NCBI RefSeq assembly: GCF_900215325.1
Contig: NZ_OCMS01000001.1
Location: 558,001-622,000 of the forward strand
Direction: 5' to 3'
From: Fibrobacter sp. UWB16
GTDB lineage: Bacteria > Fibrobacterota > Fibrobacteria > Fibrobacterales > Fibrobacteraceae
Length of the DNA: 64,000 nt
The position numbers were made by a program, and so were the translations under genes. Shown here one piece after another: positions 3,998-25,848 of the stretch. Under the pieces are notes generated by a model that made no database searches, had not been told where the DNA came from, and saw only the letters and a program-made list of their open reading frames with translations. Position 1 is the stretch's first letter. Every line of letters begins with the position of its first letter.

Positions 3998-4018
3998 TGC
4001 CGTTCCGCTAAGGACCAC

Positions 4019-4102
4019 GCGGTCGTGGTGGAATTGGTAGACACGCTAGCTTGAGGTGCTAGTGGGAGCAATCTCATGACAGTTCAAGTCTGTCCGACCG
4101 CA
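4019..4102 (+). tRNA. tRNA-Leu(GAG), copy 1
   Basis: Acceptor arms GCGGTCG and CGACCGC pair perfectly, with discriminator A at 4102. The anticodon stem GCTAGC/GCTAGT encloses the loop TTGAGGT, giving anticodon GAG. The long variable arm and the D-loop GGTAGAC pattern fit a class II leucine tRNA. The T arm loop is TTCAAGT. CCA is not encoded. Confidence 0.96.
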
Positions 4103-4103
4103 G

Positions 4104-4134
4104 AAAAAGACTCGATGAAAATCGAGTCTTTTTT
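4104..4134 (+). terminator. Intrinsic terminator of tRNA-Leu copy 1
   Basis: A perfect stem AAAAAGACTCGAT / ATCGAGTCTTTTT closes on a GAAA loop and runs into six T, directly after the tRNA. Confidence 0.93.
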
Positions 4135-4172
4135 ATTTCTCGCATGGAATCGAGCATAAAATCCACTCTATA

Positions 4173-6441: not shown

Positions 6442-6463
6442 TGTTCGTTCCGCTAAGGACCAC

Positions 6464-6547
6464 GCGGTCGTGGTGGAATTGGTAGACACGCTAGCTTGAG
6501 GTGCTAGTGGGAGCAATCTCATGACAGTTCAAGTCTGTCCGACCGCA
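6464..6547 (+). tRNA. tRNA-Leu(GAG), copy 2
   Basis: Every base matches copy 1 (4019-4102), including anticodon GAG, the variable arm and the uncoded CCA. The duplicate is therefore recent or kept identical by gene conversion. Confidence 0.96.
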
Positions 6548-6548
6548 G

Positions 6549-6579
6549 AAAAAGACTCGATGAAAATCGAGTCTTTTTT
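6549..6579 (+). terminator. Intrinsic terminator of tRNA-Leu copy 2
   Basis: Same GAAA-capped hairpin and T run as copy 1. Confidence 0.93.
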
Positions 6580-6613
6580 ATTTGCTGTGGCTCCCTTCCA
6601 CACTACCCCATAA

Positions 6614-15079: not shown

Positions 15080-16456
15080 TTACTTTATAATGCGTTCAAT
15101 CGCTTCTTTGAAAATCGCGGGGTCTTGCAACAAGCTCATGACCACCCAGCCGTCTTCGTCAAAATCAAAGAAGAAGCCCGGCTGCACAAGCACATGCTTT
15201 TCGCGAAGCAAGCGAAGCGTGAGTTCTTCATCGTCTTCACCAAGACGCACAACGGCGTACCAGCCGCCGAGAACTTCGGGGCAATACTTGGACGGGAACG
15301 CTTCGCGAAGCGTCTGCCAATTCTGTTGCAAGCGGTCAAGAACTTTAGATTCGTAAGCTTCGGAATGTTTGAGCAGGGATGCGCCGAGAGCCTGCGCAGG
15401 TGCCGAGACGCTCAAGTATGCGTCTTCAACGAATTCAAGAGCCGCGCGAATTTCTTCGAAATTTTCGCGCGGAGCGTAGAACGCCATCCAGCCGAGCTTT
15501 AGCTGCGGCGAACCCACAGCTTTGCTGAGACCATTCAACCAGAAAATCGGGCACTTCGGACCGTCTTCGGGAAGGTTGATGAAGTCTCCCCCACCCGCGT
15601 CCCAGAGATCCTGCTCCTTCGAACCTAACTCAACTAAGTCAACAAGTTGACTAGTTTCGTATATCGACTCCACTTCGTTTCGCTCAGGATGACAAGGCGC
15701 GAAAACATATTGCCAAGTGCGCGAGACTTTATCCGTGAATGCGTAATCGCCAAAGACTTCATCGACGACAAGAATCATGTTGTTCTCTTCGCAGAAGCGA
15801 ACTGCCTCGTTCCATTCTTCACGCGAGACACAATGACCCGTCGGGTTATGCGGCGAGACGAGCAACAAGATTTTCGCATGTTCCGGCGCGGCAAGCAAGC
15901 TGTCGGAATCCAGGACAAAGCGGAACGCGTTCACTTCGGCTGGCGCAGAGCGCCGCTCTGTGACCTTTTTAAGGTCGGTGAGCTTGTCGAACCGCTCACG
16001 TTTCAACTTCAAAAAGTACGGAGCGCATTCCAAATGTTCGAGCTGCGCAAGTGTATCGAGCAAAGGGTAGCCCGGCATCGGCGTTAAAATCACATCGCCC
16101 GGATCGCAGAAGGTCTTGAACAAAACGGAATAAGCTTCACTCGTGCTTGCGGTAAGGATTATCTGTCCTGCCGTAAAATTACCACCGCGTTCACGGTAAT
16201 ACTCCACCACCGCCTCGCGAGCTGATTTCCAACCCGAAGCATCGGGATTCCAATTGCCAAAAGCTTTACGACCTTCATCGACCGCATCATCCAAATCCAC
16301 CGGCAAGCCAGCCTTCACAGGCGAGCTCACCGTCATGTCGATAAACGGAAGCGAGTTTGCTTCGGCGCACTCTGCAAGAACATCGGCCTTGGCGCGTTCC
16401 AGTTCAGCAAAGAACGGCGACGGAGAAAGATCTTTAGGAAGTCGAGATGAAAGCAT
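15080..16456 (-). CDS. Class I/II PLP-dependent aminotransferase with repeat-derived insertion
   Basis: This 458-aa fold-type I aminotransferase has unknown substrate. The PLP contacts are recognisable: STSEAYSVL (phosphate side), SPHNPTGHCV, VDEVFGDYAF, and NGLSKAVGSPQLKLGW, whose Lys forms the internal aldimine. Between YAF and the Lys motif it carries about 45 extra residues starting CHPERNEVESIY. These are the translation of a type A intergenic repeat (15661-15694) plus the next segment, QLVDLVELGSKEQDLWDAGGGD. The insert would lie on a loop. Neighbours on the same strand are unrelated, and its 3' end overlaps the GH9 terminator. Confidence 0.85.
   Translation of the reverse strand: MLSSRLPKDLSPSPFFAELERAKADVLAECAEANSLPFIDMTVSSPVKAGLPVDLDDAVDEGRKAFGNWNPDASGWKSAREAVVEYYRERGGNFTAGQIILTASTSEAYSVLFKTFCDPGDVILTPMPGYPLLDTLAQLEHLECAPYFLKLKRERFDKLTDLKKVTERRSAPAEVNAFRFVLDSDSLLAAPEHAKILLLVSPHNPTGHCVSREEWNEAVRFCEENNMILVVDEVFGDYAFTDKVSRTWQYVFAPCHPERNEVESIYETSQLVDLVELGSKEQDLWDAGGGDFINLPEDGPKCPIFWLNGLSKAVGSPQLKLGWMAFYAPRENFEEIRAALEFVEDAYLSVSAPAQALGASLLKHSEAYESKVLDRLQQNWQTLREAFPSKYCPEVLGGWYAVVRLGEDDEELTLRLLREKHVLVQPGFFFDFDEDGWVVMSLLQDPAIFKEAIERIIK
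15661..15694 (-). repeat. Type A repeat inside the aminotransferase frame
   Basis: The plus strand shows the usual type A end, CGCTCAGGATGACA. On the coding strand it reads CHPERNEVESI with no stop. The frame is the same as for the type A repeat in topoisomerase III. Confidence 0.85.
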
Positions 16457-22554: not shown

Positions 22555-25500
22555 ATGATTTTACTCGTCGCCGAAAAACCTTCTGTCGCCAATCAACATT
22601 ACAAGCCGATGCTGGAGCGTATTGAGGGTGAAAAGTTTACGCAAGGCGACGGGTGTCTAATCGGCAAGAACCATTGCATCACGTGGTGCGTTGGTCACTT
22701 GATTACGCTTGCTCCGCTGGACGCCTACCCCGGATTTGAGGGCGGTTGGCGACTTTCGAATTTGCCGCTTTTGCCCGAAAAATTCAAGTTGATGGAAATC
22801 GAGAGCACGCGAAAGCAGCTCGCGGTGGTGCGCGACATGATGTCGAAGGCGGACGTGCTTGTGAACGGCGCAGACGCGGGCCGTGAAGGTAATTTGATTT
22901 TCGACCTGATTCTCGACTACACGCCGGACTTCCGCAAAAAGCAGATCAAGCGTTTGTGGGTGAACAGCTATGTGGCGAAAGATTTGGACAAGGCTTGGAA
23001 GAATCTGGAAGACGCGACCGAGCGTTTGAACTTGAGCTATGCGGCAAGGCTCCGCCAGCGTGCCGACTGGATGGTCGGGCTGAATGCGACGCGAGCTTAC
23101 ACGCTTACCGCCGGGCGCGGAAAGATGATTTCGGTGGGGCGCGTGCAAACGCCGACGCTGAATCTGGTCGTGGAACGCGATGCAATTGTCGAGCAATTCA
23201 AGGAACTGTTTTATTACAGCGTTGTGGGAACGTGGAAAGGGTTCCAAGCGCAATTATTAGACGAAAGACGAGAGACGAAAGACGAAAGGGGACAACGTCA
23301 TCCTGAACAACGTGAAGGATCCAGTGACAGTCAAGGAGATTCCCGGTCGGAGCCGGGAATGACAAGTGAGGCAGAAACAGCCGCGGAAGCGAAGGTCGCG
23401 GCGGACAAACAAAGCAATTTAAAAGTTGCGATTTTCGAGAAAGAAGAGCCGGCGCAAGCTGTTATAGACAAATGTTCGCCGCCGGAAGAAGCGACAATTG
23501 CAAAGATTGACATCCAGCAAAAAAAGCAGTTCCCACAAAAACCGTTCGACTTGACGGAGCTGCAAAAAGAGGGCAACAAGCGTTTTAAATACAGCGCCCA
23601 GCAAGTTCTCGACTGCGCCCAAAACTTGTACGAAAAGAAGTTGCTCACCTACCCACGTACGGACTCGCAATACCTGCCGGATACGATGCAGCAAGAAGCA
23701 TACGCGCTTGCACAAAGACTTGCCACAGCGCAAGAAAAATCCGTCATGCGCGATGGCAATGAAAACTTTGTCTTCATCAACTCTAGCAAAGTCACAGACC
23801 ACTTTGCCATTATCCCCACGGGAGAAGAACCACAAAATCTCCCAGAGATGGAAGAGAACATCTACAAGCTTGCCAAGGAACGCTTTGTGCAAGCATGGCT
23901 CAAGCCGTATGTCTGGAGCGAAATGGAAGTTCTGCTAGAGGCAGGCAACGAAAATGGAGATTCCCGCTCAGAGGCGGGAATGACAGCTGAGGCGAGAGTC
24001 GCGCCAGAACTGTTCCGCCTAAAGCTCAAGCGGAATGAGGATTTGGGATTCCGGGCGCTCGCCAAGGAAGAAAAGAAGAAACCGTCGAAAAAGAAAAAAG
24101 GCGATGCCGGAACAGAGTCCGGCATGACAAGTGATGCGAAGGGTGCAGATGCCGAAGGCAAAGGCGATGGCGATGATATCACGAATATCGTCGAGACGTT
24201 CCCGGAATGGAATGTCGGCGACCACGCGCCTTTCGACAGCCTGGAACAGCAAAAGAAAAAGAAGAGCAAGCCCAAGTACTTCACCGAAGCGACGCTCCTT
24301 GCCGCGATGAAAACAGCAGGCAAGCAAATCGAAAATGAAGAACTTGCCGAAGCCATGAAAGAACGCGGTCTCGGAACTCCAGCCACGCAAGCAGGCATCA
24401 TCGAGACGCTCAAAAAGCGCGGATTCATCGAAGCGCAAAAGAATTATCTTGTTAGCACCCAGCGCGGACGCGAAGTCATCGCGCTCATGGACGAAAAAGT
24501 CAAATCGCCCGAAATGACCGGCGAATGGGAATTCAAGCTTTCGCAAGTCGAGAAAGGCAAGCTCACGCCGATTGAATTCCGCGACGGCATCGTGAATTAC
24601 GTCAAGGAACTCTTCGAACATCTGCGTCAAAAATACGGCAGCCAGTTCGAACGCGAAACTGTCACCGACGCGATTCCATGCCCGAAATGTTCTAGCCCGC
24701 TCGAAATTGCGCCGTGGGGCTACGTTTGCAAAAATGAGGAATGCGGCTTTAAGGCTGGCCACACCATTGCAGGCCGCACACTGAGCCACGCCGAAATGGC
24801 GACACTCCTGAAAACCGGCAAGTCCGATTTGCTCAGCGGTTTCAAGAGCAAAAAAGGAACGACATTCAGCGCCACGCTCACATTAGGCGATGACGGCAAC
24901 ATCGGCTTTGAATTTTCTGATGACGCTCGCGCCAAAACGCCAACCAATTATAAATGCCCCAAGTGCGGCAAGACGCTTTTGGATTCCGGCAACCGCCTCA
25001 TCTGCGAAGGGAACGACGTCACCACTTCGAACAACGAAAATGGCGACCCCACACTCACACCGGACACAGCCCCGACTTGCGACTTCGTTTTCTACAAGAC
25101 AATTGCCGGGCATGTCATGAGCGACACGGAAATTGCGGAACTTTTCAACAACGGCACGACAGAAATCATCAGCGGATTCTTGACCAAGAAAGGCACAACT
25201 TTCAACGCCAAAGTCGTCTGGGACAAGGATTTCAAGGCGACATTCGCCTTCGAGAACGACGGTCATTTCCACGGCACCGAAACCAAGTTCAACTGCCCGC
25301 TCTGCAAAAAGAAACTCGAAGAAAACAAGAACGCCATTTTCTGTCCGGCTTGCAACTTTACCTTGTTCAAATCTGTTGCTGGCAAAAAGCTCCGCGTTGC
25401 TGACATCAAGGCGCTCCTCACCGGCGGCAAGACAGAACTGTTGACCGGATTCAAAAGCAAGAAAGGGACGGAATTCGACGCTTATCTAAAGCTCGGTGAA

Positions 25501-25848
25501 GACGGCCGCACAAGCTTTGAATTCGTCCATAGAGACCTTCCCTGCCCTTGCTGCGGCGACCAACTGCGATTCCGTAGCGGCACGACCACGCAAACGCCAA
25601 ACGGAGAAGTGCAAACGCTCGCGGCATACGTGTGCATGAACCCCGCCTGCAATTACGGGATTCCCAAAACATTCTTCAAGCGTGAATTTTCCGACGAAGA
25701 AGTCGAAACGCTCCTCAAGAACAAATCCACGCCTATCCTTGAACCATTCAAAAAGAACGATACGACATTCAGGGCTGCGCTAGAACTGCGCGAAGGCGGC
25801 AAGATAGCGTTTAATAAGTTGACTGTGGAAGTGATTTCTAAAAAGTAG
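22555..25848 (+). CDS. topB: DNA topoisomerase III with four C-terminal zinc-ribbon repeats and repeat insertions
   Basis: This type IA topoisomerase (1097 aa) relaxes negative supercoils and decatenates DNA through a 5'-phosphotyrosine intermediate. The Toprim domain starts MILLVAEKPSVA, with NGADAGREGNLIF as the acidic metal site. The active-site motif LTYPRTDSQYL holds Tyr366. The C-terminal third has four repeats of a zinc ribbon (CPKC or CPLC with a second Cys pair) followed by a GFKSKKGTxFxAxLxLxxDG unit. Three type B and one type A intergenic repeats are translated in frame at about residues 248-270, 468-477 and 516-525. E. coli TopB is about 650 aa, so this version is much enlarged. 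Confidence 0.95.
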   Translation: MILLVAEKPSVANQHYKPMLERIEGEKFTQGDGCLIGKNHCITWCVGHLITLAPLDAYPGFEGGWRLSNLPLLPEKFKLMEIESTRKQLAVVRDMMSKADVLVNGADAGREGNLIFDLILDYTPDFRKKQIKRLWVNSYVAKDLDKAWKNLEDATERLNLSYAARLRQRADWMVGLNATRAYTLTAGRGKMISVGRVQTPTLNLVVERDAIVEQFKELFYYSVVGTWKGFQAQLLDERRETKDERGQRHPEQREGSSDSQGDSRSEPGMTSEAETAAEAKVAADKQSNLKVAIFEKEEPAQAVIDKCSPPEEATIAKIDIQQKKQFPQKPFDLTELQKEGNKRFKYSAQQVLDCAQNLYEKKLLTYPRTDSQYLPDTMQQEAYALAQRLATAQEKSVMRDGNENFVFINSSKVTDHFAIIPTGEEPQNLPEMEENIYKLAKERFVQAWLKPYVWSEMEVLLEAGNENGDSRSEAGMTAEARVAPELFRLKLKRNEDLGFRALAKEEKKKPSKKKKGDAGTESGMTSDAKGADAEGKGDGDDITNIVETFPEWNVGDHAPFDSLEQQKKKKSKPKYFTEATLLAAMKTAGKQIENEELAEAMKERGLGTPATQAGIIETLKKRGFIEAQKNYLVSTQRGREVIALMDEKVKSPEMTGEWEFKLSQVEKGKLTPIEFRDGIVNYVKELFEHLRQKYGSQFERETVTDAIPCPKCSSPLEIAPWGYVCKNEECGFKAGHTIAGRTLSHAEMATLLKTGKSDLLSGFKSKKGTTFSATLTLGDDGNIGFEFSDDARAKTPTNYKCPKCGKTLLDSGNRLICEGNDVTTSNNENGDPTLTPDTAPTCDFVFYKTIAGHVMSDTEIAELFNNGTTEIISGFLTKKGTTFNAKVVWDKDFKATFAFENDGHFHGTETKFNCPLCKKKLEENKNAIFCPACNFTLFKSVAGKKLRVADIKALLTGGKTELLTGFKSKKGTEFDAYLKLGEDGRTSFEFVHRDLPCPCCGDQLRFRSGTTTQTPNGEVQTLAAYVCMNPACNYGIPKTFFKREFSDEEVETLLKNKSTPILEPFKKNDTTFRAALELREGGKIAFNKLTVEVISKK
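23297..23365 (+). repeat. Type A and type B repeats inside topB
   Basis: 23297-23330 is type A and encodes RHPEQREGSSDS. 23335-23365 is type B (GATTCCCGG and CCGGGAATGACA arms) and encodes GDSRSEPGMTS. Neither introduces a stop or frameshift. Confidence 0.85.
23956..23985 (+). repeat. Type B repeat inside topB
   Basis: GATTCCCGC and GCGGGAATGACA arms, encoding GDSRSEAGMT in the same reading frame as the other two type B copies. Confidence 0.85.
24100..24130 (+). repeat. Type B repeat inside topB
   Basis: GATGCCGGA and TCCGGCATGACA arms, encoding GDAGTESGMTS after a lysine-rich stretch. Confidence 0.85.

Follow-up and report, generated by a model that had tools for sequence, protein, structure and literature searches.

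Probable repeated in-frame landing of short hairpin-forming repeats in shared loops of Fibrobacter housekeeping enzymes

The locus described here raises the question of how a conserved aminotransferase comes to carry dispersed repeat DNA, read as codons, between two of its active-site motifs. We analyzed a window of 64,000 nt from Fibrobacter sp. UWB16, in which the gene lies on the minus strand (Table 1); the closest fold to its product is 1xi9, an alanine aminotransferase. Short hairpin-forming repeats, which are normally intergenic, appear to have landed repeatedly in certain loops of Fibrobacter housekeeping enzymes while keeping the reading frame, and this aminotransferase is one of them. 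As judged from sequence, two stacked repeats lie between Asp232 and Lys312, namely a type A element and, nested within it, a module termed B. We consider it probable that the insert consists of two stacked non-autonomous repeats, a CGTC-REP-like palindrome in a surface loop and a nested 51-bp hairpin module, that are read as codons, and that loops of this enzyme and of MnmE have repeatedly gained, lost or swapped repeat families.

Table 1. Features of the window, with coordinates counted from its first nucleotide.
Feature	Position	Strand	Basis
Class I/II aminotransferase gene, host of two insertion loops	15080-16456	minus	458 aa; PF00155, E 1.6e-35; open frame
Insertion loop 1, residues 155-177; filled in the window by FDKLTDLKKVTERRSAPAEVN, another repeat type	15926-15994	minus	Weak own-genome matches (E 4.5e-4, 1.6e-3); 2-62 residues in 78 loci; pLDDT <50 at 156-176
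Insertion loop 2, residues 252-297, between PLP Asp232 and Lys312	15566-15703	minus	2-148 residues in 78 loci; pLDDT <50 at 254-281
Type A element, left part; TGTC tag at 15694, encodes CHPERNEVES	15664-15694	minus	53 genome places at ≤1 mismatch
Type A element, right part; AGGATC, closes 5-bp stem ATCCT/AGGAT	15607-15612	minus	Sequence; uninterrupted in L016
Module B, nested, 51 bp (17 codons), encodes YETSQLVDLVELGSKEQ	15613-15663	minus	Own-genome copies; 62/80 genomes; covariation; +51 vs. L016
topB; holds a type A-like repeat plus three CGTC hairpins, all in frame	22555-25848	plus	Pfam Topoisom_bac

A sequence-only reading of this DNA had proposed a repeat-derived, in-frame insertion between the PLP aspartate and lysine motifs, and the proposal is borne out by copies elsewhere in the same genome, by repeat-free outgroups and by Fibrobacter orthologs found both with and without each repeat piece, the ortholog comparison having been suggested as a check. 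HPERNEVESI (residues 256-265; 15662-15691, minus strand) is read in the same frame as HPEQREGSS of topB on the opposite strand, as had been noticed. Other type A copies within genes use a second frame (VILSE/TKDPV), so that one frame is preferred but not exclusive, and the idea that type A copies have a single reading frame is ruled out. The unusual stretch that follows, QLVDLVELGSKEQ, had been suspected of being a second repeat type. It is indeed a separate repeat, module B, with copies in its own genome, which rule out a unique sequence, and in 62 of 80 Fibrobacter genomes; QLVDLVELGSKEQDLW occupies residues 270-285 (15602-15649, minus strand). The estimate of about 45 added residues holds as a total, Asp232 and Lys312 being 80 residues apart, whereas four outgroups have 32 residues there and the shortest Fibrobacter orthologs 36; only about 30 codons, however, belong to repeats. 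Within loop 2, LWDAGGGDFINLPE is a conserved non-repeat segment common to many Fibrobacter orthologs, whether repeats are present or absent. The span first given for the insert, 15640-15700, was too short, as the composite repeat covers approximately 15607-15694. Finally, unrelated phyla had been named as the place where the same insert should not occur: the outgroup loci L131-L134 (46% identity) lack it, which leaves the proposal unrefuted and rules out a general aminotransferase feature, and other phyla were viewed as PDB alignments only.

The head of the type A element, GTCATCCTGAGCGNANCGNAG, was counted across the whole 3.56-Mb genome (Table 1), where the reversed pattern gave no matches. 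In most copies GGATCCAG comes next, and CCAG follows within 26 nt of the head in 46 of the 53; the window copy reads GGATCTC. The base 5′ of GTC is C in 42 copies and T in nine, the window copy having TGTC. The window element has AT at the base of its stem, but this perfect stem is only 5 bp and the loop is long. Inverted pairs among repeat copies were noticed by eye. A stricter type A pattern occurred in 40 of 167 genomes of the phylum and in two of 40 genera, Fibrobacter and another of the same family. Among IMG/VR viral-contig stretches, 62 (L264-L325) hold the exact type A pattern, so that the repeat may extend past Fibrobacter chromosomes, or many of these stretches may be host DNA. A search of plasmids gave a single match, which lies on a plasmid of Acidobacteriota, is weak (E 0.05) and is given no weight here.

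Module B is itself dispersed. Four near-full-length copies of 15607-15666, at 85-90% identity, and additional partial ones are found elsewhere in the genome, and the 62 matching Fibrobacter genomes were obtained with a 132-bp query that contains the module. Among copies with distinct flanks, collected by sequence pattern from fetched loci, 39 of 42 are 51 bp long. GA precedes 38 of these 39 and AGGAT comes after 31, indicating that module B sits mostly inside type A elements. In an alignment of 30 copies (26 distinct), both partners vary in nine of the 12 hairpin pairs. The covariation score was 0.343, vs. 0.093 for shuffled sequences and at most 0.058 for slid partners; the structure was drawn from the very sequences scored, which gives it an advantage over the slid versions. 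At columns 12 and 13, pairing is seen in just one of the 26 distinct copies. There, opposite columns 39-40 of alignment A1, most copies have a tandem G.A/A.G between covarying pairs; copy L163 has Watson-Crick pairs at these positions. We ruled out that module B is maintained as an open coding frame, as 22 of the 39 51-bp copies are open in the window's frame.

That the hairpin of module B covaries and is constant in length would be compatible with removal or skipping at the RNA level, by excision or ribosome bypassing, which would leave the protein unchanged. Such a process is extremely improbable here. One open frame runs through the inserts in 77 of the 78 aminotransferase loci of the genus, and the frame is open in all MnmE matches, which would be needless if the hairpin were skipped. 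Moreover, when the window and six further sequences (loci) were scanned with Rfam, tRNAs alone were detected, and no self-splicing RNA. The window also holds two identical 138-bp copies (4001-4138 and 6446-6583); both contain a terminator-like hairpin as well as a tRNA gene, at 4019-4102 in one and at 6464-6547 in the other.

The phenomenon is wider than the sequence-only reading assumed, extending to a second loop of the aminotransferase, loop 1, which it did not mention, and to several other proteins. We compared 78 orthologous loci from the 76 of 80 Fibrobacter genomes that carry the gene. Both loops vary widely in length (Table 1), and the segment between them has 74 residues in 76 loci and 78 residues in the other two. 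At least eight repeat signatures were found at each loop, with translations including CHPERNEVES, VILSEAKNPV, VIARNEATKQS, VILDPGVRST, RDSRLRGND and SHPREGEDL, among others. Of 133 loop segments 24 nt or longer, 70 matched dispersed DNA within a 425-kb sample, vs. eight of 133 control segments from the same gene; the other 63 loop segments had no dispersed match in this sample, and the inserted sequence is therefore only partly accounted for as repeat. The two loops have GTCAT/ATGAC densities of 8.5 and 8.8 per kb, vs. 1.6 per kb for the gene outside them. By hand-made signatures, a named element was present at loop 1 in 38 of 82 rows and at loop 2 in 52 (the rows leave out the broken locus L086 and include L123 and four outgroups). 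The fewest label changes on the gene tree were 33 for loop 1 and 36 for loop 2, rough counts because 31 of the 79 inner branches of this weak tree are starred. A tandem GAGACGAGAGACGA-type repeat (RRETRDERR), which has no CGTC hairpin, fills loops of L021, L027, L040, L047, L054, L063 and L071, and is also found at the MnmE loop of L237 and L242. In L086 (G068:C148:4526-6350, an incomplete genome), the aminotransferase is split into two frames at a repeat-bearing loop 1. This break could reflect an out-of-frame insertion or an assembly error; unless it is the latter, it is what would be expected if landing is not frame-aware.

Structure prediction had been proposed as a way of seeing whether the insert is a solvent loop, and low model confidence at the insert is consistent with one. 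In a model built from 26 sequences (mean pLDDT 77.4, pTM 0.80), pLDDT fell below 50 in both loops and at three residues elsewhere (202-204). Both loops are thus likely to be disordered according to the model, with the qualification that a thin alignment at the inserts adds to the low pLDDT. It might be supposed that the inserts were recruited and kept for a function of the loop peptide, such as partner binding or substrate access, given that they occur in many species and that loop 2 has a conserved neighboring segment. However, close relatives differ in the sequence, length and frame of the inserts, and several species have no repeats at the loop, which makes such a role very unlikely.

Repeats in frame are also found in other genes of the window's genome, including those for UvrB (two copies), a DEAH helicase (about three, by eye), TrpCF, FeoB, a glycosyltransferase, the C-terminus of a TolC-like protein and TopB, and Pfam matches support the repeat-bearing ORFs as real genes. 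In topB, the type A-like repeat lies at 23302-23326 and the CGTC hairpins, which have 8-bp stems with AT, at 23339-23364, 23960-23985 and 24104-24129. The DEAH helicase gene (L002 and L170; window genome) holds several repeat-derived stretches, e.g., SFAALRMTN, VILNPERVKNPVKSKD and SSLSLSKGNESKD, and the C-terminal end of the TolC-like protein L188 (G000:C1:1120293-1123361) is made of three tandem HPEQS(V/E)..SSE repeats. MnmE, with orthologs in 77 of the 80 Fibrobacter genomes, varies at a single place, flanked by SKSDL and SSKTG, where GTCAT or ATGAC was counted by eye in 14 of 30 loci read. The MnmE of L236 is 98% identical to that of the window's genome, yet the element is absent.

Length differences of exactly one module were observed in three contexts. 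Loop 2 measures 87 nt in L016 vs. 138 nt in the window's genome, and loop 1 measures 45 nt in L037 vs. 96 nt in L038; in MnmE, the difference between L249 and L262 amounts to 17 residues, which correspond to the same module B. L037 and L038 belong to one well-supported clade of four, and there module B lies outside a type A context, which suggests that it is able to enter genes alone. These steps also bear on the possibility that an old insertion has been followed by gene conversion, i.e., short homologous recombination between the loops and intergenic repeats, in which case the different families would represent swaps and not fresh insertions. The elements do have GTCAT ends in common and neighboring families share parts, which could provide the short homology. 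On the other hand, whole modules with flush ends appear in all three contexts, one of them (L037/L038) outside type A, and unrelated families replace each other; we therefore regard gene conversion as unlikely.

A more specific suggestion, which we put forward tentatively and would not favor over its negation, is that module B constitutes a very small mobile element in its own right, of 51 bp with a covarying hairpin. It would insert flush, with no target duplication, into loops of CGTC-REP-like elements and into genes as a 17-codon cassette, it would be moved by an enzyme other than Y1, and a few enzyme loops would be long-lived landing sites with continual peptide turnover. Flush insertion without target duplication is the mode of IS200/IS605 elements, which the inserts resemble in showing no visible duplication, and a Y1_Tnp match is present in 27 of 80 Fibrobacter genomes. 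Even so, it is doubtful that RAYT/Y1 transposases of the REP type mobilize the elements: Y1_Tnp is absent from the window's genome, and none of ten fetched Y1 loci of the genus is flanked by a CGTC hairpin or module B. Thus, neither the Y1_Tnp search of the window's genome nor these ten loci linked a transposase to the elements.

Taking the insertion of two stacked repeats as the preferred explanation, the course of events can be sketched from what was observed, namely the identity of the repeats, their in-frame state, their concentration in two loops, the differences in family from one ortholog to another and the +51 steps. A CGTC-REP-like palindromic element would have landed in a surface loop of the aminotransferase, module B would have come to sit nested within the type A element, and both would be translated as ordinary codons. 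Movement would occur by transposition-like insertion, with broad landing followed by purifying selection against all but the in-frame copies in tolerant loops, and the encoded peptide would be a neutral, disordered extension. The same two aminotransferase loops and one MnmE loop would thus repeatedly receive, lose or swap elements of different families. By in-frame landing in the same loops, the aminotransferase would come to carry repeat-encoded peptides beside its active-site motifs. No filled/empty pair within one species was found among the compared loci, and we accordingly infer movement between species.

To our knowledge, in-frame repeats in proteins have been described mainly from Rickettsia, with scattered REP cases. 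Here, one genus offers two enzymes, dozens of species and many separate fillings of the same loops, which makes it testable how repeat DNA makes new protein segments and how fast loops turn over. It likewise makes testable what moves CGTC-type REPs, for which one survey reports no transposase (Di Nocera et al., 2013; PMC3733652).

Literature searches that named Fibrobacter, with most subscription journals outside their scope, returned no description of such repeats, and an exact-sequence search gave no match. The nearest counterparts in the literature are the CGTC REPs, which Di Nocera et al. (2013; PMC3733652) defined in five phyla and which also occur in frame within genes. As described there, they have a stem of 8-9 bp starting with AT, a loop of 4-5 nt, a CGTC/TGTC tag and a CCA tail, and head-to-head dimers predominate. 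The Fibrobacter elements share the GTC tag after C or T and the AT at the stem base, and the CCAG after the head in most copies may correspond to the CCA tail; both are dispersed and mostly intergenic with in-frame gene copies, including uvrB, and, in that paper as in our data, both are without a dedicated transposase. In contrast, type A has a 5-bp stem, a long loop and a nested 51-bp module. Although the window copy fits the tag, it departs from the stem and loop lengths, and we therefore call it CGTC-REP-like and not a member; in topB, by contrast, all three hairpins reach a stem length of 8 bp and include the AT. Many families occupy one loop across Fibrobacter orthologs, whereas the main text of PMC3733652, where Fibrobacter is not named, gives one such coincidence, recB of two Xanthomonas.

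GTAG REPs and RAYTs also involve short tagged palindromes that are dispersed and form hairpins, but the Fibrobacter tag is GTC, not GTAG, and the window's genome has no Y1 transposase, which sets the elements apart from GTAG REPs. The Rickettsia palindromic elements (RPEs; Ogata et al., 2000, as described in PMC3767692 and PMC2229807) are palindromic repeats in frame inside conserved proteins; PMC3767692 describes solvent-exposed insertions and ATGAC motifs for RPE-4, -6, and -7, and PMC2229807 reviews RPEs with a guanylate kinase test. The Fibrobacter repeats are similarly palindromic, in frame and stop-free in conserved proteins and carry ATGAC, and their solvent exposure is suggested by pLDDT below 50. 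Unlike RPEs, they belong to free-living gut bacteria of another phylum, and several families turn over in the same loops; the likeness is one of description and the ATGAC motif only. In-frame REPs in genes are already known from Rickettsia RPEs and CGTC REPs. What is new is the Fibrobacter host, the nested 51-bp module and the recurrent landing loops in which several families turn over.
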